Below are positions 36,428 through 54,131 of a DNA stretch of 64,000 nt, one piece after another. Under the pieces are notes generated by a model. That model had not been told where the DNA came from. It did not search any database and saw nothing but the letters and a program-made list of their open reading frames with translations. A program made the translations under genes and the position numbers. Every line of letters starts with the position of its first letter. Position 1 is the first letter of the stretch. The stretch is from Camillea tinctor. Lineage: Eukaryota; Ascomycota; Sordariomycetes; Xylariales; Xylariaceae. Location of the stretch: positions 186,001-250,000 of the forward strand of contig MU394088.1 in NCBI GenBank assembly GCA_022578605.1, in the 5' to 3' direction.

Positions 36428-39160
36428 CTATCTCTGGGTCCCCCATCTAGGTGAGACTACACTTCCTTTCATGCTGACTCTTCTTCCTACCCTGCAAGAC
36501 TGTGGGCTTGTATTTTTGATCGATTTATGCCTCCGTTCCTGGATAGCATATAGACCCCCGGGCCATGAGAATAAATTATGCGACATCGAACATGTGACAT
36601 CGAAACCTGCCTTTTGGAATTTGTTTATTACATATGTGGAATCCGTGTCCTCAAGGTTGGTGTCCGGAACAGTCATACCATGTAAACGGTTATAGAAGAC
36701 GAGAAGAGTCTCTTGATCTTCATCGTGAGAGCGAAATATGTGAAGCAAACGGTCATCTGTATATGTTCTGTATCTCTTGAACAGCTTCACAAGAAATATC
36801 CAGTAATTCGGGGGAAATCCTTTCATAAATGCTAGGTAGTTGAGTTCATCTGCCATAGTAGCGCCAGCATGATTAAACACATTATAAATTGCGTATCCGA
36901 GAAACGGGAGCTTGTAGGCCACCAACAGACGTAGAGCAAATTGCTCTAGGAAAGACTCGGGAAGTAGATTTCTGGGTGGGTTGTACTCCAGGCCATCGAT
37001 CTTCCTCTTTGAGGTTCCCGGAGAAGGCCAAATTGACTGAAGAAGACTCTCTAGCGTATTGTTCTTAATGCTGCTGTTGATCTCGGCCAAGCAACGATCT
37101 CTTAAGGTTTTGTGACTCTTAGTAATGAACAAGTCCCTTTTGAGGCCTGGCCAGAGTTCGCTGTATCCGCCATTTACAAGAAAGTAGTCTCGAACTGATT
37201 CGTGGATAAACTGAACAGTTTTCTGTTTGCCCGAGCCTCGAGTAAAGACCAACATTGCTAGACCTTTTGAAGAGCTGTTGACGAATCGAGACATGTCCCC
37301 ATGAGATATCTGGCCTTTGTCCCACAATCTGTTAGTCTCTGGAGAATCGGGAGTGCGCATTGCAAAGAAGTACTCCTCAGCTAGCATAGGGCGTTTAGCA
37401 AAGAGAATTAATTGGATAGAGAGCTGAAGCTTGGGTATGTCATCTTGATCCTTTCTTAAGGCTAACTTGAACAGGTCGTCTAATGTATGAGGGAGGTCGT
37501 CAATGCATTTCTGAAATTCATCCACACGGCCATTTGCATATTTCTTATTGAGCATTTGGACAACAAGAACGACCCAGAGAAAGACTCCCTCGGATTTTTG
37601 TAATATCTTAGATCTCAAATAATCCACTTGAGATGAATCGGTTAGGGTTAATTCGGACCTGATGTATTGGTCAATATCAGCGCTATGGTCCTTCTCGTCC
37701 TCCAGGATGATCTGCCTGCCCCATCTGCTCATAATTGCCGGATAATGGCGACTCGAGAAACAGACTTGGAATTGGACGTTGGAATCTTCAGCGTAGCCAC
37801 TTATTTCCTCAAAGAATGATACCATGTCATTCATAGTGTCATCCTGACCTTCATCTAGAGCATCAATGAAGACTTGTAACTTACGGTGTCCTAAGCGCTC
37901 CACAGCTTGGACCAAGGTCTCCTTGAGTGTTTCCAGTGGCCAGCCGTTCTCCCGAAAGGCGTCATAAGCTCTATGGTTGAATTCGTCCAGGATGCTTTGA
38001 AGGTCCTTGGCTTTTGATAAAATACGATACAACAAGGATCGATAGAGACTGGTTGTTGACTTTTGAAGCAAGCCACCCTGTGCGTTGAAGAAGAAGGGTG
38101 CCACAATCGTATTCTCATCCGACGTGGCTGCTTTTATAGTCTGACGACAGAGAAACTTCATCAATGTCGATTTTCCCGCTCCAGGTTTTCCCTTAATCCA
38201 AAGGAATCCACGATGATCATCCCAATTCGCTGCAGTCACCCAGTCTTTGAATTGCTCTTTCTCCAGTATCCACTGGCATGTCTTCCTATTGGGAGATTTT
38301 AGGTTCCGAAGCCGTATGTCACTATCTTCGAAGTATAATAGATCCAATAGGCCCTTCCGTAGACTAGCCTGCCTGGTACTGACGTGTCTGTTGAAAGATA
38401 GCCCATCTGCTCTGTTGGGAGATGGACAGTATATCTCCTTTTCAAGTCGTCTGAAAGCGTTGTCTACCCCCTCGCTATAAAGAAGCGGCAAATAGACGTT
38501 GAAGATGCCTAATAGGGAGTATGCCCTATCCTCTTCACGCTTTGTCTCACGCCCTTCTGACCATGACATCCGTTGACTGACAGTAAATTCCGATAAGGCG
38601 CGACCTCGAAGTGCGGCTTTGTCGATCCTCGTAATGTCATGGAGCAGTTTTTCGAGCGAGTTTTTGTCTCCTAGCCGTTGTCGTTGCGCTGAGAAGAATT
38701 CTACTTTTGGAGGTGCAATGAGCTCTTGGAGAGTCCAGTCGCGAGTAAACCAAGTGCATTTTCTAAAATATGGCTCCCAAGTCGATCGGAGCATGTAACC
38801 AAAAGTTTGGTGGTCTTTCGGCGGAACATCAGCTAGATATACGTAACAGCGCTCTGCATTTTGATACCACTTGAACATAGAATTAATTGCTTCAGCAAGC
38901 TCGGTAGAATTAGACTTGTCAATACAGCACGTGTCTACCCAAAAGTACTTAAGGCCATTTAAAGCAGCTTATTGTTGGCAGAAATCAAGCTTTCGATACC
39001 CATTCTTCTCTTTCCCGACACCTTTCTCAATATCTTTGAAGGTGACCTCGTCATCGTCTTCACCCCATGTATGCGATAAAATTGCATAAGGAGGAACGTT
39101 TCCCGAGATATTCGCGGTTAAGGCCAGCTCGCCGTTCTCCCGAAGTGTGAGTAGACGCAT
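36428..39160 (-). pseudogene. HET-NACHT (STAND) incompatibility-type protein with one in-frame stop
   Basis: The frame from ATG 39160 runs to 36428 without any shift, except for a single TAA at 38969-38971 (codon 64). Full length would be 910 codons. The HET domain starts AILSHTWGEDDDEVTFKDIE. Right after the stop it resumes as AALNGLKYFWVDTCCIDKS, and the expected residue at the stop is Q or K. The region has no usable GT donor before the stop, so an intron cannot remove it. After the HET domain comes a NACHT ATPase with P-loop GKPGAGKST (about 324-332) and Walker B VFIDALDEGQDD. A helical C-terminal region includes VQFIHESVRDYFL, typical of this class. No WD or ankyrin repeats are seen. Intact relatives control vegetative incompatibility and programmed cell death. 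If translated, only 63 residues form from the first ATG. Restart at an internal ATG (38878) would lose most of the HET signature. Confidence 0.85.
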
Positions 39161-40922
39161 GTTTGGAGAATGCTAAGTATCAGGTCGACAGAAAATCGCT
39201 AGAGAAGATCTAGCTCGGTTGTGAGCTGAGTCTGAGAGATGAGTAACGAAACGTGTATTGGGTAGAATCAATCGACTCTATACCTTTGGAATGAGGGGGA
39301 ATCCATAATTAAGCGGGATTCGTGATTAATGTTAGTGTTGCTACCCAAGCCTGCAACCTGCAGCAATTCTACAGAGAACTGCATGGATAAACTGGCGTGT
39401 TTCTGGCAGCTCTCATGCATGTAGTTGCTTATGATTCGATGAAAATCATGCACAGCCAGCCTCCAGTAACGTATGAAAATTAGCTAAGTTTGATACTGTA
39501 GTATTACTGTAGTATAAGGACTATACAGCCACTTAGCTCGCCACTGTTCTTATTATGATTGGCGCGTAGGAAGCCTATAAACTTCCATAAAGAAGAAAAA
39601 GATGTTATATTGAACTGGGGATAGAGGAGACCCCTTACCCTCAGGTGTATGGGGCTGTGAGGGAGTGGGGACTATTGCCCCTAGTCGACGACACCCAACC
39701 ATCGTACTAATTGGTTATATAGAAAGCATAAAATTAGGAAAAAAACAAAATAATGTACTGATCTCTATACCTCTCGCCGACTACTTTAGTAAAGAAAAGC
39801 TTAGCATCAATTTTGAAAAGCAATGCAGTATATATACACACTAAGCCATGGTTCCTGGTTCCCCTAGTCCCTACAACAATATGTCGAGGAGTTATTTTAT
39901 TTGCGATACTCAACAGGTATCATCTGCATACATAAGTGAACATGGAAACAACATGTCCTAAATTCTAATCATAATCAATCTTCATACTATCAATTTTACC
40001 CGATTAAACAAAATACAGGACGATAAATATCTCATTAAAATGCTACATCTAGGTAGACTAGCAGTCACAAGTTATTCTACGGAATATTGAGCTTGATTGT
40101 TTCCTTTAGTATAGTATTAAAGAATGGAAAAGGGGAAAGGGGGAGAAAAATACTTAGATTTAAAAAGGTTTTATGCCGCGCAGACATCATGCCCATACAA
40201 GACAACTTCTTCAGCAGTTTCTTGAAACTTCTTGAAACTTCAACATTTAATTTCCCTGTTTATGACAAATTATGATTTGTCTGAAAATGACTAAAAGAGA
40301 AACATATTATAAGATACTATGGCATAATGTAGGAAGTAGATTCAGAAGATATATACAAAAGTCTAAGCGCCTAGTATATCGACAAAATTAAAGTATAGAC
40401 ACCCTCTTCGACGTCTCATTGCCGCGTAATCATAAGCTCGTCTATCTGCACATGCAGTAGCCAAGAAGTCATCCCATTTGACATTTTAACAACGCCAATT
40501 CTCTATCCACTGCTAAAAGGCAGATAAGAAATATGACTGGTGGTTTGGAACGTCTTGGCCACATGCTAAGAATTACGAATATTTACCTATTTAGCTAGTT
40601 CTGTACCTTGAGAGCTGAACGAGGTCTTGGGTAGTAAGGATAACGATTGCAATGGGTGTGGTTGAATAAGTAGAAATATGTAGAGAGAAGCTCGATCGTA
40701 AAAATGGTGTAGGGGAGCTAGTAACACTCGTTTATTTAAGGTCTGTGTCCTCCTCGTGCAATAACTGTCTAACGAATGAGCAGTCTATCCAAAGTCGATA
40801 CCTTGAAGGTTCCTCCAATTTGGATTGATAATATATCGTGATCGACTATCAGAGCATGACATACAGTCTATATCCCATATGAAAGTGATACTCCGGGAGC
40901 CCTATACCTCTATACAATCAAC
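39161..40922. other. AT-rich intergenic, 1.8 kb
   Basis: Upstream of the HET-NACHT gene and of the Asp-rich membrane-protein gene (divergent). Low GC, with only short open frames. No transposon structure or RNA gene is recognisable. Confidence 0.55.
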
Positions 40923-41579
40923 ATGAGGCTTTTATCACTCCTTATGATCCTTGAACTTGGTGCTCTTGCTAGTGCCGCTTGGTTTCGACGGGATATTGTA
41001 ATTATTACTCCTAGGCCCCCTGGGACGGGACTTTCACCTTCGAGCCCATCGACTTTGTCTCACACCCTGATAATGATAGCCCAAGATGACATGAAGCCAA
41101 CAGCGCTAAGGCGACGTGTCCTTCATCGTGATATTCACCGTAGAGACGATGAGGACGATGATAGCGACGACGACGACGACGACGACGACGATGAGAATAG
41201 ACGTCCCAATGCAGGAGCCATTGCTGGTGGTATAGTAGGCGGTATACTATTCCTCCTCTTACTATTGCTGGGGACGTGGTATTGGCGCCGCCTGCGACGC
41301 CGGCGACTACCCCACCGACGTCCTCGTTTCCGCTTCCCGTTTCGCCGCCTGTTACGAAGAAAAGACGAAGAGAAAGAAGTGGAGAGCAAATATCATCCGT
41401 CACCGTCTTTGGAAGGCCAAGGCGGCCCACTGAACCCATCCCGACGGCAATCCGAGCCGGCTGAAATGGCGACGCCGTCGGTCCACCGCTCGGAATCGCC
41501 ATCCCCCCTCACACCATCGCCGCCGAGAGAAGGGCATCGAAATCCATTGAGGCCGGTCCAAGATACGCGACAAGAATGA
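40923..41579 (+). CDS. Predicted one-pass type I membrane protein with Asp-rich stalk
   Basis: 218 aa in a single exon. Residues 1-18 are a signal peptide (LLSLLMILELGALASA). The short extracellular part ends in an almost pure Asp stretch, DEDDDSDDDDDDDDDE. Then come GAIAGGIVGGILFLLLLLLGTW (transmembrane, with a GxxxG-like glycine start) and a very basic WRRLRRRRLPHRR stop-transfer. The cytosolic tail is basic, then Ser/Pro-rich. The AGGIVGG...LLLL helix resembles those of fungal Mid2/Wsc-like wall sensors and other one-pass fungal receptors, but no WSC or cysteine-rich sensor domain is present. Function unknown. It converges on the rvt gene. Confidence 0.75.
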   Translation: MRLLSLLMILELGALASAAWFRRDIVIITPRPPGTGLSPSSPSTLSHTLIMIAQDDMKPTALRRRVLHRDIHRRDDEDDDSDDDDDDDDDENRRPNAGAIAGGIVGGILFLLLLLLGTWYWRRLRRRRLPHRRPRFRFPFRRLLRRKDEEKEVESKYHPSPSLEGQGGPLNPSRRQSEPAEMATPSVHRSESPSPLTPSPPREGHRNPLRPVQDTRQE

Positions 41580-42042
41580 CAATATGTTGACATAGGAGGA
41601 GGAGGGTTTCTATAAGAATAAGGGTCTTGGCTAGGAAAGGGGGTAATGGGATCAAGTTTGAGTATGAGGGAAATAGGAACCGCAGTATATTGGGATATTT
41701 CATGTTTAATTCGCGATCAAGAACATGATAGGTTGAACACACCACCACGGCATGGGAACAAATTGTTATTTTCTTTACCCCTTTATCATCATAGTCACAT
41801 TACGACATACTATCATTAATGATAGGGAAGCTAGTGTATCATTCCCACCCTAAAGAAAGAGAGACTTCCTAATTACCTGACTTGGAATCAATTCACAGCC
41901 CCTAAACTCCTCGACCTTCATGTTGGAACCCGTGACAAATTCCCTAGAGTTACCATATCTCATCCGATCCTAACCCCCAATCCTAACCCTAACCCTCACC
42001 CTTTTTCTCCTTTCTCTCCTTCTCTCTTAACATTAATCTACT
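41580..42042. other. Convergent 3' spacer with telomere-like repeats
   Basis: 463 bp between two converging stops. Contains a short block of CCCTAA-type units near 41970-42000. Otherwise nothing seen. Confidence 0.6.
41967..42002. repeat. Telomere-like CCCTAA repeats (degenerate)
   Basis: Reads as CCTAACCC followed by two to three more CCTAACCCT-like units, the fungal telomere sequence (TTAGGG on the minus strand). It is too short for a telomere. It sits about 40-75 bp past the stop of the rvt gene, probably inside its 3' untranslated region. Confidence 0.7.
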
Positions 42043-45000
42043 CTAACCCTGCCACGTAACCCTCTTATCCCTGAAAATGGTCACCATACCCATGGGCAGC
42101 AGTCCGGGCTCCACGATCGTCAGCCCGCCGAATCGGTCGATCACCTCGGGCCCGTACAACTGCGCGACCCACTTCCAGTACGGCTCCATCGTGCCCCAGG
42201 GGCTGTGGATCCCGCTATTACTACTAGCGCTATCCAGCCCCTGAATCGCCGCCGAGATCCCCGGCCCCGGGCCCGCGACCGACTCCTCGCGCGGCTGCTC
42301 GAGTAGGTTTTTGTACACTTGAGCTAGCTCCCCGTCGAAGCTGTAGCACAGGTCCTCCCGGTAGCGCGCGAACTCGGCGAAGCTCATGAAGGTCTCGCGC
42401 TCGCGCTCGGTCTCGGGCTCCCACTGCTGGTGGTGGAGGGGGACGGACTGGGCAGGGTAATAGAGACGGCCGGTCGCGGTGGTGGTGCTAGCAGTGGTAG
42501 TGTTCTGCCGGCCGCGCTCGAAGGCCGCTTTGCGCGCGGCGTAGGCGTCGCGCTCGGCGTCGAAGAAGGCGTCGAGGAGGGTGCGCGAGGGGTCCGCGGG
42601 CACGGTGCCGCGCACCTGCATGATCGAGACGAAGGGGCTGCGGAGGTCGAGCCCGCCGAGCTCCATTGGGAAGAAGAGGTACGCGTCCGGGATGTCGGAG
42701 ACGCCGAAGCGCTGGTGCACGAGGGTCTTGAGGTACTCGACCACGTTGGTCACGGGCGGGGTTCCCGGGTCGAGTAGAGAGGAGTCGTCCGAGGAGGAGG
42801 ATGGAGAGAAGATCTCGTGCTGGATGCGTTTGTGCGTCGCGAGCATCTGGTCGACGTGGTCGCGGCCGAAACAGTTGGCCGGCTTGCCGAAGTTGGAGGT
42901 GAAGAACGTGCCCGCGTACGTGTTCCATGCTTGAATGAAGGTGATGATGCTCTTGCGCTTGTCACGTAGCTGCTTGCGTAAGTCGACAATGTGGCTGTCT
43001 ACCATGGTCTGGTCGATCTCGAACTTGCCTGTCTCCGTCGACAGCTTCAGGAAGCCCCAGCGGATGTCTCCCACGGGCAGGGACCGGTCGATGTCCAGAG
43101 ACACCGACGGGTCGGCGGAGATGCGCACGGTGCCCGCTTTAGTCGGATTGATGTATGTGCCCGTAGCGTTGACGAAGTCGGTGACCGATTTCCATGCTGT
43201 CACGGCTGAAGAATGGTCTCGCGACCAGAACCACAAGTCGTCGTGCATGCGAAAGAGCAGGTTACCGCCGGTAGACTGGTTGACGGAAAAGTCGAGACAA
43301 AAAAGGATGAGCTCCCCGAATATTTCGCTTAGAACATGCGACGCGGGTGTGCCTCGCTGCCGGATACGCGGGGCTACGGACTCTCCATCCTCCATGAATC
43401 TGAGAGGGGCCTTGAGGAACTTGGTGAAGAACTGGATCCACGTTGGAGAGAACCCGAAAAATGTCAGGACGGAGAGGATCGTCTCGTGTGGGAGGAGGGA
43501 ATTCCAGTTGTCGAAAACTGAGTGGAACGCGGTAACCTCTCCATACAGTTTTGTGTTGATGGCGATTTCGGTTGACAAGAGACGGATTAATCTCTGCTTG
43601 TCTTCCATAGGCCGTTTGACTGCTGAAGACGGACCATAGTCATCCTCCGAATCATCTTTATATTGGATGACAGGGTTAGATGGCATTGCAGAGCCGAGGT
43701 ATGGATCGTAAGACTCATTCCTGGAAGGCATGGCAGTTCTTGCTACCTGCGCTGATCGGATACTCTGCTGCGGTTGTTGTACTTGTGCTCGTGCCATCAT
43801 TAGACGCTTTTTGTTTTGTTGCTCTAGAAGTTGTAGTTGCATTTGCATGTCTGGCCTGTCCAGCGTAGTCTTGTATTCGGCTGCCTCTTCCCCCTCGAGT
43901 GACTCCTGTTGTTGAGCATCGGAATCCATCAAGTTAGCCATGAAGTAGTGTGTACGATAGATCCGGTCTCGAGTAGCCTGTACAGACCCCCTTTGGCTTT
44001 CAGGGCCCAGATAATAAGCACGACGCTTCACGTCAAGCTTGGATATCTGTTTACGCGAGGATTTCCACGCTCCATTGAAGTTGCGGAATCTCTTCAACGC
44101 CCCCTTCAAGAATACGGACCACTTGACACCGATGTAATGTAGGAATATAGCCTGAAGCAGATCTTCGTGCATTAGGATGTTGTAGATGCCACTAATCTTT
44201 CGTCGCTGCTCTAGGGGAACATTGTGACCCCAGGACCAGCTATCGAGAGCGCCAAGTCGCATGTTGAGGACATCAGCTATCTCGCCGAGGATAACAGGGT
44301 TATTTTTGAAGTCCCTTAATACTTCGCGTTTCTCGTCGGTGAGAAGGTCGGAGGCAAGAAGACCGTCGGAAATCCACGATAGGGTCGCGGAATCAAATTG
44401 CTTCGGTGCAGCCATTGTAATCTCAAAGCTTATGACATCTTGACGAAGCTTTTCCAGAGCCTTGGCTGATGCGGTCTTCTCCTGGCTCATGAAGCCAAAC
44501 AAACTATTGAGATAAGCATTAAGAGAGTACTTGTCCATGCTAGCAGGTTCGAAGACGACTCGTTCCCATTCAATACGAGAGTCTCGCTTCATTTCATTTG
44601 CAAGGTCTTCGAAACCCTCTGCCATTGCCATATCTACCTCCTCAGACTTGGCTTTCTCGGTGGATAACCATTCGGTAACGAGCTGGGCGTACAATGAAGC
44701 GTACTGGAACTTGAGAGACTGGGTGTTAAGGTGATGAAGCAATGATTGTTCCCAGGTGTGCATCAGGCTAGGTGATACGGAAGGATCATATTTGGACTGG
44801 GCCAAGAACTTTTCGAGGTTCTTCAGCTCAAACTCTAGATCAGGGTTCTTGGACTGTCCTAGGATGATGTCTCCTGACTTGTCAGTCTTAATTGCACAAC
44901 ACTCTTTTACACCTTGGCTCAGAACAACAAGCCTGTCAATGGGTTTCTTTTCGTGTTCTAATCTGGCAATGACATCGGCTTTGATATTCTCAAAATGCGA

Positions 45001-45084
45001 CCGACGCTTAGAGAGTTCCTCGAGTTTGGTGTTAGTGATCTCTTGTAGTGTCTCAGAGAAGACACTGCCGTTGGACGACGCCAT
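42043..45084 (-). CDS. rvt: RVT: domesticated cellular reverse transcriptase-related protein
   Basis: A single uninterrupted frame of 1013 aa. Residues 1-350 are helical and charged, with likely coiled coils. The reverse-transcriptase fold then follows. A probable fingers region is RRAYYLGPESQRG...RIYRTHYFMANLM (354-386). A long Gln-rich then acidic insertion covers about 387-495. Motif A is FHSVFDNWNSLLPHE (D525). Motif B is RQRGTPASHVLSEI (575-588). Motif C is FRMHDDLWFW with D615 and D616. Motif D is INPTKAGTVRI (645-655). The catalytic aspartates are therefore intact. This matches the rvt genes described as single-copy, conserved RT-related genes in fungi, bdelloid rotifers and some bacteria: long proteins with N-terminal coils and a big loop before motif A. 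There is no endonuclease, integrase, gag or terminal repeat, so it is not a mobile element. Upstream of the ATG is a (TA)n-rich leader. Cellular role unknown. Confidence 0.9.
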   Translation of the reverse strand: MASSNGSVFSETLQEITNTKLEELSKRRSHFENIKADVIARLEHEKKPIDRLVVLSQGVKECCAIKTDKSGDIILGQSKNPDLEFELKNLEKFLAQSKYDPSVSPSLMHTWEQSLLHHLNTQSLKFQYASLYAQLVTEWLSTEKAKSEEVDMAMAEGFEDLANEMKRDSRIEWERVVFEPASMDKYSLNAYLNSLFGFMSQEKTASAKALEKLRQDVISFEITMAAPKQFDSATLSWISDGLLASDLLTDEKREVLRDFKNNPVILGEIADVLNMRLGALDSWSWGHNVPLEQRRKISGIYNILMHEDLLQAIFLHYIGVKWSVFLKGALKRFRNFNGAWKSSRKQISKLDVKRRAYYLGPESQRGSVQATRDRIYRTHYFMANLMDSDAQQQESLEGEEAAEYKTTLDRPDMQMQLQLLEQQNKKRLMMARAQVQQPQQSIRSAQVARTAMPSRNESYDPYLGSAMPSNPVIQYKDDSEDDYGPSSAVKRPMEDKQRLIRLLSTEIAINTKLYGEVTAFHSVFDNWNSLLPHETILSVLTFFGFSPTWIQFFTKFLKAPLRFMEDGESVAPRIRQRGTPASHVLSEIFGELILFCLDFSVNQSTGGNLLFRMHDDLWFWSRDHSSAVTAWKSVTDFVNATGTYINPTKAGTVRISADPSVSLDIDRSLPVGDIRWGFLKLSTETGKFEIDQTMVDSHIVDLRKQLRDKRKSIITFIQAWNTYAGTFFTSNFGKPANCFGRDHVDQMLATHKRIQHEIFSPSSSSDDSSLLDPGTPPVTNVVEYLKTLVHQRFGVSDIPDAYLFFPMELGGLDLRSPFVSIMQVRGTVPADPSRTLLDAFFDAERDAYAARKAAFERGRQNTTTASTTTATGRLYYPAQSVPLHHQQWEPETERERETFMSFAEFARYREDLCYSFDGELAQVYKNLLEQPREESVAGPGPGISAAIQGLDSASSNSGIHSPWGTMEPYWKWVAQLYGPEVIDRFGGLTIVEPGLLPMGMVTIFRDKRVTWQG

Positions 45085-46543
45085 AGTATTTGGTGTATTG
45101 TTGGGTACTATATATATATGTGTATAGCCTCAACTAATCTCAAGATTCTGCGTCTATTTCTGTTGTTGTTTATTAGGAAAAAAGATGCCGGGAGAAAAGG
45201 AAGAAAGGAGAAGAGGATAAAGATGAGGGAGGATGATGAACGAAGAAATCAGGAGGGAGGTTGAGGGAAAGCCAGGCTTTTTATAGCCAAGGGATGGAGG
45301 CAAATGGGGTCGTATGGGGTCTCCTAGTTGCCTGGTTTGAGGCACAGTCCTATGATGGTTCCCTCAGGCATCCTGTCACAAGTGGTGCGCGAACTCCCCC
45401 TCTTCATTATACTTGGCTTACACTAGTTAATAATTATAATGTTTTTACTTTATGTTATACATAAATTTTCTCTGATGCTTTATCCGTAGAAAATATCGTG
45501 TTTTGATTCGAGCTTCATGTTCCTCAATTTGATTTGTACCAATTAGCCCGTTGTGTCTTTTCCCTTGACTACCTAGGTACCTAAGGAATAAAATGAAGAT
45601 GTCTAGTATACAGCAATGACTTTGAACGATAAACAACATATACTTAAATGATCTACGTAAATGTAAAGAGAGACAGTAATTGAAAATATGGTAAACCATG
45701 TTAATTCCAAGATAGGGAGAATGCATTATAAATGATAAAGTTGGGAGGCCTCTCCGCCTGAGGTACGGAGTAGTATATCACCAACTCGAATACTTAACCT
45801 AGGCCGTATCTGCTCATATTCAACTTCGTAGGTCAATATTCTATATTTTAGAATTTATATTTTATGACTGTGTATAATTTTATAAGATTCGACCATTTGA
45901 TCCCTTGTCTTTGATATTTGCATCATAATCTTTTTGCTCAAGACCTTACTTCCTTCTGTCACATGTGTTCACCTGACCTATCTACCTGATGTGTATATGT
46001 ATAAAACATCTAACTACTATGGATCTGGTGGTCTCTCAGCCCCTTCTACATCTTCAATGAACCTACCACATCCATTCTATGATACCTTCAGTGGTTAGTG
46101 TGAGTGAATCCGTGACATCAGGCTCAACTTTATATCAACGTATGAGATGAGCCGGGTTTTCGAACCACCCTTTTTCAGTCCGTAGTCCGTTTCAACTTCT
46201 TTATGAAGCGAAATCTCCCTCTAGAGCTGTACAGTGGGAACCCGTGGTGGCACCGCAGATTCCTATGGGAATTCCTATATAGGAGTAAATAGGAGAAAAA
46301 AAGTAGAATAGGAAGTTTTCAAAGGGTTGAAAATATATCGCCGTATCTCCTTCTCGAACAAGGTAAGTACAGCTCCCAGTACTTCTAATCTCGAAAAGCA
46401 ATAGACAAATCCCGAGCGTATATGCTACAAATCATGAGTGAAGCACCTCCTGAATCTACGTACATGTAGTCTCCCCAGATGGCCTGATCCGCTGATCTAC
46501 TACATCCACACTCGTCACTGTCACAGGCGAAGTGCCCCTAAGC
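45085..46543. other. Intergenic, 1.5 kb
   Basis: Promoter of rvt and 3' flank of the hydrolase pseudogene. On the rvt sense strand the first 170 bp upstream are pyrimidine-rich and TATATA-containing (45105-45120). No other feature seen. Confidence 0.55.
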
Positions 46544-47645
46544 CTAGATCCTATCGAGTATCCACTGGTGAAGCCTTATCTCTATTGCTCCCTCATCCTC
46601 ACGGTGATGCAACCCCAACTGGCGGTTCGAGACCGGAGGATTATGGCATTCCCCAGGGGAAATAAAGGCGTCGAGCTTCTTGGCGTTATGTTGCTTCAAC
46701 TTCTGCACGAATTGCAATACCTATGTCATCTAGAAGAATCTCATCTTCTCCAGCAAGAATGAGAATGTGTCGCGCGGCGACGTCCTGCCACCAGTCCTCA
46801 AGCGCTTCCAATGGCTCATTGTAAAAGTCCGCCAGCGCGTGATTCATATAGGCGTCGGCCCATTTTCTCAAGCCAGGGCCGCCTAGACAATCTTTTTGAG
46901 CATTTCGTGAGAATGACGGCGATAACTGGTCGAACTTCAACCAGGGAGAAAGGAAGACGGCCCCGCGGAAGCTCTGTCCGTTGTTTCGGGGAGGAATCCC
47001 TGGGATGCTCGGATGAGGATGTGATAGGTGTGCTAGGACAGCAGCGGTGAGGCTACCGCGGGCGGAATCGGCCCCGACCAACAGCTTGGAATACTTGTGT
47101 TAATAAAGGATCGACTGGATCACTATTAGGAAGTAGAATCGGTTACTTACGTTAGAGTATGGTTTCCAAAGTGTCTCGGTGAGAAGTTTGATAGCTCCAA
47201 CAGCCTGCTCTAGTTGCCGTGGGTAGGTAGCCTTGGGAGCAACACCTAGGTCAGCCTGCCATGTAGGCGAATCCGCCGCCATGAAACCAAAGGACAACGA
47301 GCTCTGCTGCATTATCCCCAACCCAACAGCCCAAAGTTCCATCTGGCAACTTAGAAATGTTCGGTTGAAGTCCTGTCTTCTTCATGAAGGCAGTATAAGA
47401 CTCTACCGTAGACGGGTTGATGGCTTTAGTCGGGGAGATTGAGAAGATGCGCCATATGTAGCGTAGACTATTGCACTCACTGTTATTGACGGAGAGAGGT
47501 ACTCTCTACAACAGATCTCATTCCCTCATAGAGAACATGTCTCCTGAATGTTGGGGCCCCATCGTTGCCTCGAAATGGGGCCTTCAAGGCCGCTGTTATC
47601 AATGAAAGCGCAGCAGTTCTGTTCCGTCAACTTAAGGCGCAGCAT
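46544..47645 (-). pseudogene. Degraded alpha/beta-hydrolase (steryl acetyl hydrolase / HSL-like)
   Basis: Recognisable in pieces across shifted frames. An N-terminal MLRLKLTEQ (ATG at 47645) is followed, one frame off, by a membrane helix TAALSLITAALKAPFRG and RRHVLYEGMRSVVE. RYIWRIFSISPTK and MKKTGLQPNISKLPDG come next. A shift near 47325 gives DNAAELVVLWFHGGGFAYMAG, the oxyanion HGGG. The next conserved block, ADLGVAPKATYPRQLEQAV, follows in the earlier frame with about 25 expected residues missing. A normal GTAAGT...AAG intron (about 47095-47149) leads to VGADSARGS in place of the nucleophile elbow GDSAGGN. Then come AVFLSPWLKF and ILAGEDEIL, another shift near 46695, and FISPGECHNPPV with the catalytic-His region, ending at TAG 46544-46546. 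At least three frame changes, one deletion and a damaged active site show it is dead. Confidence 0.85.
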
Positions 47646-48209
47646 AGTGGTAGGGATATGATACCAATGGCATCAACATACTTATCCGAGCGAGGGCCAG
47701 TGGGAGCGATAGGCACTCCCACACTGACAGTGAAGGCTTACCATCCATGGCCGGGTGAGATGGAACGATTGATTGATCAAGGGCCTGTCGAGGTTCTTTA
47801 GGTACGGAGACTCAATCTGGTAGTATTAGGTATTTAGTTAGTTCTGTCACTTTCCCAATTTCAATTTGATAAAAGCAAGGGATGCCCATCTGGTTTACAG
47901 CCCAAACCCCTTATTGAAAGCCTCGCTTTGATCGAGAGTAAAGATGCGGACCCTTTATGTACTTCAAATTTAAAACTATAAACTTACTTATTTTTTGAAG
48001 TCTGTGCTAATTCAATGTTGGCAAGTATTTTTGAGCTTAATATAACTTATTGGCATGGGTATCATTAATATCTATTTGGTCCATATACGCCTATTCCTTG
48101 ATCTTTGCATTGGTTGTCCCATCAGCATGTAGTTGCCTGCGCTGCTGCATCTCTGCCGTAGCATGGCTCAGTTAATATCAAGCATCTGATGTAAAAAATG
48201 GGCACATTA
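47646..48209. other. Intergenic, 0.6 kb
   Basis: Between the 5' end of the hydrolase pseudogene and the 3' end of HIR3, all on the minus strand. Nothing recognised. Confidence 0.55.
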
Positions 48210-51200
48210 TTATTCTTCCTCTTCCTCGGCCTCCTCAGCCTCTTCTGCTTCGTCGCCCTCTTCCTCTTCTTCCTCTCCCTCTTCTTCTTCTCCTTCCTCA
48301 TCCTCTTCCTCTTCCTCATCTTCTTCGGCTGCCGAATTCATCTCCGTATCCTCAGCGCCACTCTCTCGTTCTTCATCCTCTTCCTGGCTCCTTCGTATAA
48401 GGTTCGGGAACATTAACTGATGAGCTTCGTCTTCGTCCAAAAGATCCTCTGGGGGAACATCACTAAGATCGCTCTCATCATCGGCCGAATCGTGGACACT
48501 GCCAGGCGCCGAGCTCAAATCGCCCTCCTCTCCCTCTTCCCCCTCTTCTCCCTCCTCTCCCTCTTCGCCCTCTTCACCCTCGCCCTCTTCACCTTCACCC
48601 TCTTCCTCTTCACCCTCTTCCTCTTCACCTTCACCCTCTTCGTCTTTCATCTCTACATCTTCCTCCGGCTCTCCCTTATCACTTTGTGCATCATTGGCCC
48701 CTTCACCGCCGTTGCCTTCGTCGGCGGCGGGGGTTTTGCCGCTCGATACAGACCCACGGGACTTGGTACCTGCTGGCTTCGGGCCTTCTTGGACACGCAA
48801 TATGACCTGCTCTGCCTTTCGCAAGATATCAGCCCTCCTGATACCAGCTTTGCGTGGTCGTTGGGCGCCTTCTACGTTGGCGGGTACAGAATCCCCCGCT
48901 GCGCCTTCTGTTCCTGAATTCTCGTGAGATTGGGGATTAAGAATGTTGTTGAAGGGATTAGCTGGTTTCGTGTTATCCGGAGCCTGCTCTGCTTGGCGGG
49001 CTTCCTCGCGGAGACGATCCTGTTCGCGTTCTGCAAGCAACGTTGCTACCGCAGGCCCTGGTAGTGTTTTTCCTATTTCGAAGTAAATTGCCGTATAACA
49101 GTCACTGATGAGGTCGTCGATAGCACCAGCCTTCATAAGCCCAGCGTTGAGTTTTTTCAACTCGATCGTCTCCTGCAATGCACTGAGTGCAGGATGTACG
49201 GTTGCTGGATCTGAAGACCAATCACTAATTCTAGCGGCGATGATATCAAATTCCTCAGGGGTAGTTACCTTGAAGTCGTCTTCAAGAACTGGGGAGATCT
49301 GGTATGTGTGGCGGATGAGTCGCAAGTAGGCTATGCAGCAACTCTGCCATAAGTCGTTGAAATGGTAGAAGTCGGCTCCTTTCTTACGCAGACGTCGGAG
49401 CAAAGCCTCAAAATTCGGTCTGTCTTTGAGAATAACCAAAATCTTGACGACAAATCTTACATATTGTTCAGTGAAGACATGGTGTCGTCCAGGCCGTTCA
49501 GCATCGCACTTCCAGACGTTCATCACCATAGTCTTAGTAAGCATAGATTCCCTGAGCACACCGAATGCCGCCATCGCTTGGAGATAATCTGGTTCCTCGG
49601 CGTTCTCATCGAATAGAATCCTGGCATGTCGCATAATGATACGATGCTGCCAGTTAGACCTGTCTTTCTCCCGTAAATGCGTAAGGGTTTTGATAATATA
49701 TGGCTCCCAATCCTCAGGCTCACCAATCTCAATTTGTTCACGGTCTTGTATGGCATACGGCTGACGTTGGAGGATGTTGGCACCTTCCTGGGCCGGGAGA
49801 TCTCCTTGGCTGACGAGCTTGTGAACGATCGAGACGATTTTGTAATGCGGTTCTAGAATAGGGTCCTGGCCGTGTCGTGGCTTAGGCAGTGCAAAGACTA
49901 CTTCGACCGCCCGCTCAAGAGCATCAATTACCTGTTGGACAGTAGGACGATCCCGCAAATCGTTGCAATCAAGGGAGTCTTGCGGCTTCTGGTACATCTT
50001 CCAGAGACATTTGGCATACATGTAAGAATTCCTGCAATCGATTAATACCTGCTCATTTTGTCATCGAGATGGATAATGGGCTACTACTCACGTCCACTGT
50101 TTAGGCTTGATTTCTATGGCCTTTTTGAATAGCCTCGAAGCATATTTCCAAACTTTGTAATCTTGCATCTGAGAATGTACATCTTTGGTATCTGCACCGG
50201 CGTCGTGGATGTAGAACCGTTTATGATCGGAATGCTGGAAGGGCTCCATAGCGAATGGCTCTCGACTAGACGCGTACATGCGCATGCCGAACTTGTGATA
50301 TAGATCGTGCATAGCGTCTAGACTTTCTCCATGAATATCAAGAGAGGCAGTCCTTGAGTGGGATAGTGCTAGAGTGTAGCAGTGAATTGCATTGCGTTGG
50401 TACTTAACCAGCTCTGCCCGCTCCTTGTTCATTTTATCTGCAGTCCAGAGAACAGACTCGTCAAGCTCATAATCAAAACATTCAGCCAGTCTGAACCAAG
50501 CATCCCATTGATCCGGTGTAAACTGCAGCTGCTGGCGGAGGAACGTGGCACCAATTCGAAGGTCGTCAGTAGCGCCTGGTGTCTGTCTCCTGTTTAGATC
50601 GACTCCCTTGAATTTGGTAAACGCAATCATTCCAAGTAAAAAGAACCACCTATGCTTTGCCAATGCGCTGTCTGTTGTGTGCACAGTAACAGCATCGCTG
50701 GTGACATTGCCCTTGAACGCCCTGTACAAGCGAAGGGGATCAATCGGCTTCTGCAACGTTTGGGTGAAAATACGCAGGTTCTGTATGAGCTGCTGGTTGG
50801 ATTTAGTTTGTCCGATGGCCTGTTGCATGTGCTCAATCGTGTTTTTCAAGTCCGACTTGAGCAGATCCTTCATAGGTATGCGGTTGGCAAGGACAGATAC
50901 TCTTTCTACTAATGCTGTCGTGTTACGCCGTTCGAGCTTTTCAGCTGGGCATCCATGATCTTGCACCTCGGAAAGACCAACTCCAAGCTTCATGCCATAT
51001 AGGTCGTAAAGTACCTGTCCAAGGTAATCCTCCCAATTGTCTATCATGTCTTGCTTTAGTAATTCAACTCGCATCATCTTGAGGAAGATTTTGTTAGATG
51101 ATTTGCAGAACTTTCGTAGTCCCAAGACCTGATGGACAGCTGCCAGATAGTCAGCTAGATCATTTTCTGGAGTAGTGAAGCCTGATTTGTTCTGCGCCAC

Positions 51201-54131
51201 GCCTGCCTTGAGCATTGTATAGAGCAGAGACCAGTTCCTGACTTGCATCTCGCGTAGCTTTGTTAAATATCCTTGGAACGTCGCTCCAGTAGACGGATGT
51301 TGGGTCATGCCAACACGGACTTCATCTTCATACATGCAAGTGACATGGAGGATACTGCTAAGTTTTGCCAAAGCTGATGTGCTCGATTTCAAGTGCTCAT
51401 CATCAATGATGTCAAAGGCAGTGCTATCATTCAGAGCTATTGAAAGAGCCGAAACGAGTAGGTCATCGAGAGACCTAAGCATCTTCATGAAGAGTGGGCG
51501 ACGCGTATCGATGGCAGTGCTAGAAAACGAGTCTCGCTCGAAGTCACCAATAACCATCTCCATGCTTTTTAAAAGACATGAGAATTGTTTCGTGGTATAG
51601 TCAATGGCATTATAAGCCTCGCCGAGGCGAGTCCAGAGGAACAACCGTAGTTCGGTGCTGGTACCTAAAAGGAACTTCCAGAGGTCTTGGAGGCCTTGGC
51701 TTGCGAACTCGGAAATAGGTACGCCATCCTGGGCCGCAGGCGCCATCTCCACATCTCCATCAGATGCGGTTGTTTTACGTCCTTGTGCGTTCTCCATGGT
51801 GGTATAAACCGTGGAAGGGTTCAAGACAGGCTCTAAGCTCTCAATAACAGCAAGAGGATCATTCATATCGTTTTGAAACAGTCCAAGGAAGAAATCCATA
51901 GTGGTCAGCTTCGATATCTCTCGGTCAGCAGCAAGGGCAGATACTTCTGGCATAACCGCGTTGTTTGGGATCTGTATATCAACCGTGCTAGGCTCTTCGC
52001 CGAGCCTATCACGAAGACTTTTCCAGCATTGAAGGACGTGCTCTCGTGAGACGCCATCTGTAAGCGTAACGGCAAAGACAGCCGACCACAGAAACCGAAG
52101 TGACGTGGAGTTATCTGTTCCTTCAGGTCGGTCCCTCCTCAGCTGAGCAGCATAAGAGAACCATCGTCCCAGCCTCCCCCTGGTCTCTACCCTAATAGCA
52201 AAATCTACCGCACTATTAGGGTTAGTGATACGCTCGTAAACGTCTAGATGCAGTTCGAATAGCATTTGAACGATCCGATCGACGACCTCTAGTCGCGAGG
52301 AGTCTTGACTAGTGCCGTCGTTTGTCAGCTCGTGCTGTGTGCGACGGAAGATATCTTCATCAAGGTGACTGATGACTTGCACCACGGCCGTCTTCATCGA
52401 GTCAGACCATTTGCTAGTTAGATACGTGGCACAGACATGTTTAACCCATTCAAATGCGACCTCTTGGATACTCATCCAACCCTCGTTGACTCTTTGAACA
52501 AATCTTTTCAGCCCTTTCGTCTCGTGGAAAAGAGGTGTCTCGGCTTTTTTCTGAGACCCAGGGTTCGAATGCTCAAGAAAAGAAGAGAACCCAATAGAGG
52601 AAGCCTCTGTTTTGCGAAGGATGACTTTTGTGCACTTTTCATCAAATTTTAGTAGTGAATCCCGCAAATCAACCATGGGTATCCTATTTAATTTGGCCGT
52701 TCGCGTTTCAGAAGCGCAAGAATCGAGGACCTCGGCCAGACGATCAAGTGTATCACGATCTGTTACCCCTATGTTCTCAACCATATTTCGTGTCATCTGG
52801 AATAGATTCTGATCGGCAGCCTGGAAAGGTTGGAGCTGGGCAGCCAAAAGTGTGTTCGCATCCATTGCCTCTCCAGCAGTCTCTCGCCGGCGTGTCCTTT
52901 TACTCCTTTTCTGGTCAGCGACCTCCTCGTCTGCTGTCTCTGGGAGGCCAGCGACTGATTGCGAACGTTTTCGAGAAAGTACGGAGGCACTCCGTTCCGC
53001 AGAAGAAGCATTTTCGTTCTCTGCGCGCCCATCCCCGGGCGATTCAAGCTGATCTTCTTTCGATTGTGAAAGAGAACCAGTTTCGGTCGCAATAGTGATA
53101 GCCTGAGTAACTGCGACCTCAGGTGGCTCCTGTTGTTCGGTTAACATTTCTGTATCGTCCGGAACATCTGGTATCTCGGGCAGCTCAAGCGTGAGAGCGC
53201 AACCACTCAACCCATGTGCTATAACGAAATGAACTAGTGCCATGCCTAGGTCGGTCCACGAGGCTGCCGGTACTTGGATTACTAGACGATTTGTGTCCTG
53301 CCCATAAGATAGAGGTTTGGATTGCGCAAGGGAGTCTGTAGGGTTAGGGAGAAAGGGGAGGGGGTCTAGATATTTCTGCAGGATCTTGGGGATGGACTTT
53401 CTGAGGAACGGGCCCATTATCGGATGAGTTAAGGATAACTCATCGGACAGAACACTCAGATGTGCCTTGAGTTGCTCGCCAGCAAATCCCTCAGCGAGTG
53501 AGGGGGGTTCAACCTCATCCACTGCCGGATCATCGTCAAGTTCGATGGCGGCCTCGAGGCAATACCGACTAACCCTAGCGCTACTAAGGAAAGCGGCGAC
53601 ACGCGCAGCCCTTCTCCAGAGTTCGGCATCCGATGGGTCTTGATCCAAGGCAGCGCTAAATTCGTAGAGAGCTTTCTGCGCTTGAGCCAGGACTTTCTTG
53701 TCTGCCAAAATCGAGGTCGCATCACCCTTAGTCCTGATATGATGGCGGATTTCATCCAGGGCAAACTGGCCATGGTTCTTGAATGCGAGGTAGAGAGTCT
53801 GAGGCAAGCTGCTGCCGCTTCCATCCAGATCCGGCTGGGCGACATCTAGGCCCTGGGAAAGGGTCAAATCAAGGGGCAGTTGACGGGCATCAGAGTGTCG
53901 TTCGGCGCGTTCGAACTCGGTCGCACTCTCGGGGTATTTGAAGATGTCAGACTGGAAAAGAGACTCGTATGCAGCGGCGGCTTCTTCGTAGTGTTGTGGG
54001 CCTTGCGCGTGGAGCTTCAAGGCGGCCTGGAATCGCTTCAGGGCTTCATCGATGTTGAGTTCGCGAGTGGTATCAATCTCCTCGTCGATGTTCTCTTCGG
54101 GCTCGAGATTGATGGCGGAGAAAGCAGGCAT
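48210..54131 (-). CDS. HIR3: Histone transcription regulator 3 (HIR complex subunit, CABIN1-like)
   Basis: Two exons, 50092-54131 and 48210-50031, giving 1953 aa. The 60-nt intron (GTGAGT...GCAG) joins KPKQW-T-NSYMYAKCLWKMY inside a TPR-like helical pair. The N-terminus PAFSAINLEPEENIDEE followed by EALKRFQAALKLHAQGPQHYEEAAAAYESL and IFKYPESATEFER is the Hir3 signature. More TPR-type repeats are scattered through the protein, for example WFRLAECFDYELDESVLW. The HIR complex deposits histone H3-H4 outside replication and represses histone genes. Hir3 is its scaffold. The last 200 residues are strongly acidic, with Glu/Gly repeats from a 9-bp minisatellite, and fit histone binding. Length matches filamentous-fungal Hir3. 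It shares an 883-bp divergent promoter region with the exomer gene. Confidence 0.93.
48226..48660. repeat. Coding minisatellite (CTCTTCNCC-type, 9 bp) in HIR3 acidic tail
   Basis: Two blocks of CT-rich units (48226-48330 and 48515-48660), coding for Glu/Gly repeats on the minus strand. The reading frame stays open throughout, so length changes occur in whole codons. Confidence 0.75.

Follow-up and report, generated by a model that had tools for sequence, protein, structure and literature searches.

We examined a 64,000-nucleotide stretch of the genome of Camillea tinctor (Sordariomycetes, Xylariales; GenBank assembly GCA_022578605.1, contig MU394088.1, positions 186,001 to 250,000 of the forward strand), referred to below as the window, and within it a gene for a protein related to reverse transcriptases (RTs), which we call RVT-B. 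A first-pass annotation, made from the letters alone, had presented it as an intact RT gene of the rvt class, i.e., of the RT-related cellular genes reportedly described by Gladyshev and Arkhipova in 2011. As that annotation stated, the gene is a single intron-free frame of 1013 codons (window 42043..45084). It lies on the minus strand and runs uninterrupted from ATG to stop (1013 codons plus stop), with GC fractions of 0.554, 0.404 and 0.678 at codon positions 1-3 and of 0.40-0.41 in its flanks. The identical residues form the end of a longer public model, P0002 (Camillea tinctor F4810DRAFT_712513; 1196 residues), which joins an alpha/beta hydrolase piece to the gene on its 5' side. We take the 1013-residue form as the gene because, among the first 120 relatives, 98% or more share its first methionine (M1); the fusion in the public annotation is probably wrong. 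The hydrolase piece itself lies at window 46686-47342 on the minus strand, and PF07859 is given for P0002.

In build RVT-B is an rvt gene: an RT-type gene that belongs to the cell, seems not to be mobile and is conserved in many fungi. In a Pfam scan of its protein, the only match better than E 0.33 was RVT_1 (19.5 bits, cut-off 29.6), and no endonuclease or other mobile-element domain was found. In a separate search, group_II_RT_mat reached 17.6 bits, its cut-off being 300. Direct or inverted repeats of at least 15 bases (seed 12) were absent from window 40500-46600, and the 44.7 Mb assembly contains no near-identical second copy of the gene; its one clear genomic relative is RVT-A, a sister gene of 926 codons located on contig C39, with 35-37% identity. 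Two weak matches on contig C66 (E 0.014 and 0.04) both fall within the glutamine-rich loop of the protein. No Rfam family reached its threshold in window 38000-48500, and one pattern scan of viral contigs detected no relative. On these results the gene is not a multi-copy long interspersed nuclear element (LINE), long terminal repeat (LTR) element or group II element: it is not multi-copy, endonuclease, integrase, RNase H and maturase parts were not found, and the group II score is far under its cut-off. The claim that mobile-element parts are missing holds, and neither of the objections that the annotation had raised against itself, a multi-copy LINE or group II identity and the existence of near-identical copies, was borne out.

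Protein searches with (i) the window gene, (ii) the C39 gene and (iii) a Dothideomycete relative found 414, 335 and 697 proteins, respectively, and the best 120 of each were used. With P0002 dropped, the window translation added and repeats removed, the comparison set contained 328 proteins, 208 of them RVT-B and 120 RVT-A; the search of other fungi that the annotation had proposed thus returned conserved relatives among the listed matches.

Motif B (RQRGTPAS) and the HDD of motif C (residues 614-616) are present as annotated. D525, however, which had been named as the motif A residue, lies two residues past the position of the catalytic aspartic acid (Asp) of RVT-A, which falls on V523. The motif A column contains Asp in all 120 RVT-A proteins and in only two of the 208 RVT-B proteins, the remainder having V (103), Q (24), A (17), E (13), T (12), S (10), M (9), G (6), I (5), N (5), C (1) or R (1). 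As the stretch from G515 to T535 is identical in length in 208/208 RVT-B and 119/120 RVT-A proteins, this column is independent of gap placement. Position 525 is acidic in 195/208 RVT-B versus 22/120 RVT-A proteins, and the position four after the motif A Asp, tyrosine or phenylalanine in 119/120 RVT-A proteins, is W in 182, L in 24 and F in two of the RVT-B proteins.

The losses extend to the fingers lysine (Lys) and arginine (Arg), which contact the triphosphate in retroviral RT. Every RVT-A protein has both, whereas the Lys is found in none of the 208 RVT-B proteins and the Arg in two; the Camillea protein has I300 and N302 instead. Both RVT-B proteins that retain the motif A Asp also lack the fingers Lys/Arg, so that this pair was probably lost first. 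Motif C is less affected, its DD being present in 165/208 RVT-B (absent in 43) versus 120/120 RVT-A proteins, and the motif D Lys position is K or R in 206/208 RVT-B proteins; in 13 of the 208, positions 523 and 525 are both non-acidic. With these losses near clade-wide, the description of the RT as intact fails: the annotation took the defining oddity of the gene for normality. Taken together, the absence of the motif A Asp and that of the fingers Lys/Arg point to a loss of RT catalysis in RVT-B.

Structure prediction gives the protein an RT fold with the rvt build, and the AlphaFold2 models of RVT-A and RVT-B have the same domain order. The parts of RVT-B are given in Table 1. Its glutamine-rich insertion has the highest mean entropy among the regions compared, block values of the predicted local distance difference test (pLDDT) of 36-73 over residues 401-490, and one predicted helix (411-428).

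Table 1. Parts of RVT-B (window positions) and location of its sister gene RVT-A
Feature	Residues	Position	Strand	Basis or remark
N-terminal mostly helical region	1-285	44230..45084	-	AlphaFold2 model
Fingers beta hairpin	289-305	44170..44220	-	AlphaFold2 model and alignment; I300 and N302 at the RVT-A Lys/Arg places
Glutamine-rich low-confidence insertion between fingers and motif A	396-490	43615..43899	-	Place of rvt loop 2a
Motif A strand and turn	516-527	43504..43539	-	AlphaFold2 model and alignment
V523		43516-43518	-	At the catalytic Asp position
D525		43510-43512	-	Residue named in the first-pass annotation
Motif B RQRGTPAS	575-582	43339..43362	-	
Motif C hairpin	612-620	43225..43251	-	D615 D616 present; aligned to ADD of DRT9
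End of palm, thumb, C-terminal helical region	661-1013	42046..43104	-	AlphaFold2 model and conservation
RVT-A		L011:2882-5662, contig C39	+	926 codons, uninterrupted; protein P0122

Outside the active site, much of the protein is held. Among 96 columns fixed in RVT-A (at least 98%), 47 persist in 95% or more of RVT-B proteins. The fingers hairpin and motif A hold seven of the 12 freed columns but 15 of all 96 (P 2.8e-4, with the ranges chosen post hoc). Conversely, 26 columns are conserved in RVT-B and not in RVT-A. Mean entropies (RVT-B/RVT-A), a rough yardstick as the two samples differ in breadth, were 1.50/1.45 and 1.65/1.38 for the N-terminal regions, 1.67/1.68 for the fingers, 2.75/2.51 for the loop, 1.14/1.08 for the palm with motif A, 1.45/1.08 for the palm with motifs B and C, 1.17/1.21 for the thumb and 1.52/1.86 for the C-terminal region; of the eight regions, five are either more conserved in RVT-B or within 0.06 of RVT-A, and in the other three RVT-B is clearly the less conserved. 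The median length of the 208 RVT-B proteins is 978 (range 826-1568). The kept, freed and newly fixed columns together suggest selection on a changed job.

Judged by its residues, it is RVT-A that is the catalytic triad gene of Camillea tinctor: P0122 has D440, D534 and D535 as well as K285 and R287 in the fingers, and all five are present in 120/120 listed relatives. Pfam reported no family for RVT-A at E 0.1, and a weak RVT_1 match for P0322; since RVT-A has no reported family, we infer from these residues that it is an active RT. A profile search with RVT-A returned a four-helix bundle protein at E 0.003 (N-terminal helices) and DRT9 at E 0.43. When RVT-A and RVT-B were aligned as profiles to three RT frames of the Camillea genome there was mostly no signal, the sole exception being a weak match (E 0.023) of the RVT-A fingers stretch to NGKLRLCVD of the gypsy-type frame L001. 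One RVT-A record, P0151, is filed under 'Candidatus Bathyarchaeota archaeon' with 56% identity to the Camillea protein, and is probably fungal contamination.

In a FastTree of the 328 proteins, computed with the motif A column excluded, the 208 RVT-B proteins form one clade (support for the group with D or E in motif A, 29). A more careful tree of 58 of the 328, with the root placed on RVT-A and not by an outgroup, separates RVT-A from RVT-B at 100/100 and, inside RVT-B, recovers the D+E group (99/91), the Q group (100/100) and the rest (96/96), the join of the Q group with the rest being weak (85/63). On this tree the five groups need four changes, which is the minimum; Glu or Gln in motif A characterizes two early groups. 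For an outgroup, bacterial and archaeal genomes were pattern-scanned twice, with no confirmed relative, and a tblastn search of plasmids with RVT-A only gave none either. We call the loss of the motif A Asp derived because RTs in general carry it. Named RVT-B members belong to the Sordariomycetes, Dothideomycetes, Lecanoromycetes, Eurotiomycetes and Leotiomycetes (one species or genus checked per class), the Eurotiomycetes being represented by one named protein, P0329. A divergent RVT-B subgroup in the FastTree comprises P0107, P0109, P0119, P0120 and P0121; Truncatella angustata is listed with P0109 and with another RVT-B, P0078, and on these two members RVT-B has probably duplicated again.

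The rvt literature describes a very long RT branch with a loop 2a (PMC5718144), a non-essential Neurospora rvt protein with terminal transferase activity that is strongly induced upon protein synthesis inhibition (PMC3520738), and a need for intact rvt catalytic residues in stress relief (PMC10680173); the names RVT1 and RVT2 have also been applied to retrotransposons (PMC4920403). Like rvt genes, RVT-B has an RT core, a large insertion before motif A, no mobile-element domain found and few copies; we place it with them by build. The characterized Neurospora crassa and bacterial RVT sequences were not identified among the 328 proteins. The proposed class thus stands as regards build, lack of mobility and copy number, and gives way at the catalytic residues, which in the RVT-B branch, unlike in rvt genes, appear not to be intact. 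RVT-B would accordingly be described as a non-catalytic branch beside intact rvt-type genes and not as a typical member. A catalytically dead fungal rvt was not encountered in the titles and abstract openings surveyed, and mention in the founding rvt papers is possible.

We consider it somewhat more probable than not that RVT-B is an rvt-type duplicate that has lost its nucleotide chemistry and is kept as a non-catalytic scaffold, probably an RNA-binding one. An old duplication of an rvt-type RT would have given rise to RVT-A, with the triad, and to RVT-B, in which the fold was kept and nucleotide transfer lost. RVT-B would be unable to add nucleotides as an RT does, yet would retain the motif B framework, thumb and C-terminus, with motif C partly eroded, and its retained cleft could be a binding site for nucleic acid, probably RNA; it may be an oligomer, and may act during translational stress, a condition that rvt proteins respond to. 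Several observations weigh against this proposal: (i) RNA binding is argued from predicted fold and analogy; (ii) the frequency of the motif C DD and of the acid at 525 exceeds what simple neglect would leave; (iii) the second N-terminal region and the part of the palm with motifs B and C are less conserved in RVT-B than in RVT-A; (iv) among the 26 RVT-B-specific columns, several show only a mild substitution (L for I, V or M); and (v) all 15 members with D or E in motif A come from records without an organism name, and early RVT-B members may have been active.

As working comparisons for the scaffold we suggest Ssd1, a fungal pseudo-nuclease of the RNase II family, and the RT-like core of Prp8. 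Ssd1 belongs to a nuclease family yet is not an enzyme, and fungi keep it as a stress protein that binds RNA (PMC8934651); its fold is different, and the likeness is one of analogy only. No sequence match between Prp8 and RVT-B was found: a PDB sequence search with the window-led profile returned only DRT9 at E<=1, and the overlap with Prp8 is in predicted fold only. Prp8 is moreover essential and far larger, whereas RVT-B is patchy. With slightly less than even confidence, we suggest that RVT-B arose by a domestication like that of Prp8 but independent of it, in which an RT became a non-catalytic scaffold for nucleic acid that stands alone and is found in five Pezizomycotina classes, with an ordered loss of the active site and new residues fixed (R654, W549, S586, W676, F688, N731 and others). 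The dismantling may have proceeded from the fingers Lys/Arg to replacement of the motif A Asp by E or Q, then to small or hydrophobic residues there, and finally to motif C.

RVT-B might instead serve RVT-A as a subunit or regulator, the dead paralogue tuning the active enzyme in a hetero-oligomer. The shared domain order of the models and the at least 23 named species listed with both genes fit such a role, as do the multimers that the Neurospora rvt protein forms and the multimerization named in the title of a paper from 2018 about bacterial rvt products. As a class, rvt proteins are expected to be multimeric and to polymerize nucleoside triphosphates. Among Xylariales, however, 34 names are listed with RVT-B only, 21 with RVT-A only and 17 with both, counts hand-typed from two best-120 lists, in which an unlisted name does not prove a gene missing although one would expect the list to include the RVT-A proteins of other Xylariales. 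As names are listed with RVT-B alone more often than with both, RVT-B is probably not an obligate partner; the three Biscogniauxia names, of which two are the closest to Camillea in RVT-A (78%), appear with RVT-A only. We therefore regard partnership as unlikely.

A little less likely again is that RVT-B is still an enzyme, D615, D616 and the displaced acid at 525 binding metal for an unusual nucleotidyl transfer. The widespread DD and acid at 525, the nearly constant K or R of motif D and the 15 members with E or D in motif A could be read in this way, but the fingers Lys/Arg are gone, motif A has V, A, T, S, M, G, I, N or C in 168/208 proteins, 43 members are without DD, and 13 are without an acid at 523 or 525. 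The intact, active rvt enzyme of the annotation has the open frame, the predicted RT fold and motifs B and C in its favor, and is very improbable given V523, I300 and N302 and the clade-wide extent of these losses. Least credible is a decaying duplicate heading to pseudogene, or a retroelement remnant: the lost catalytic residues and the somewhat lower conservation of RVT-B in parts are what decay would bring, and they are outweighed by 208 proteins with a median length of 978, the 26 RVT-B-specific conserved columns, and the absence of repeats at the gene ends and of a near-identical copy.

If RVT-B is indeed a non-catalytic scaffold, its presence beside RVT-A in some species, and apparently alone in others, separates polymerization from other rvt functions, and its remaining role would be a part of rvt biology that does not need polymerization. 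RVT-B would then be another conserved cellular dead RT beside Prp8, and the surviving D, E and Q members of RVT-B let the catalytic loss be traced stepwise. The RTs of R2 and LINE-1 differ from it as mobile-element enzymes with about 10% identity, no endonuclease having been found in RVT-B.

Near the RVT-B gene, on the same strand, an 816-codon frame (window 36428-38878) with an NPHP3_N nucleoside triphosphatase domain (3.2e-29) represents an NLR-like gene. Two adjoining long frames of 603 and 1347 codons (window 48210-50021 and 50088-54131, minus strand) have no Pfam match, and the former sits where the AT skew is strong (-0.224).
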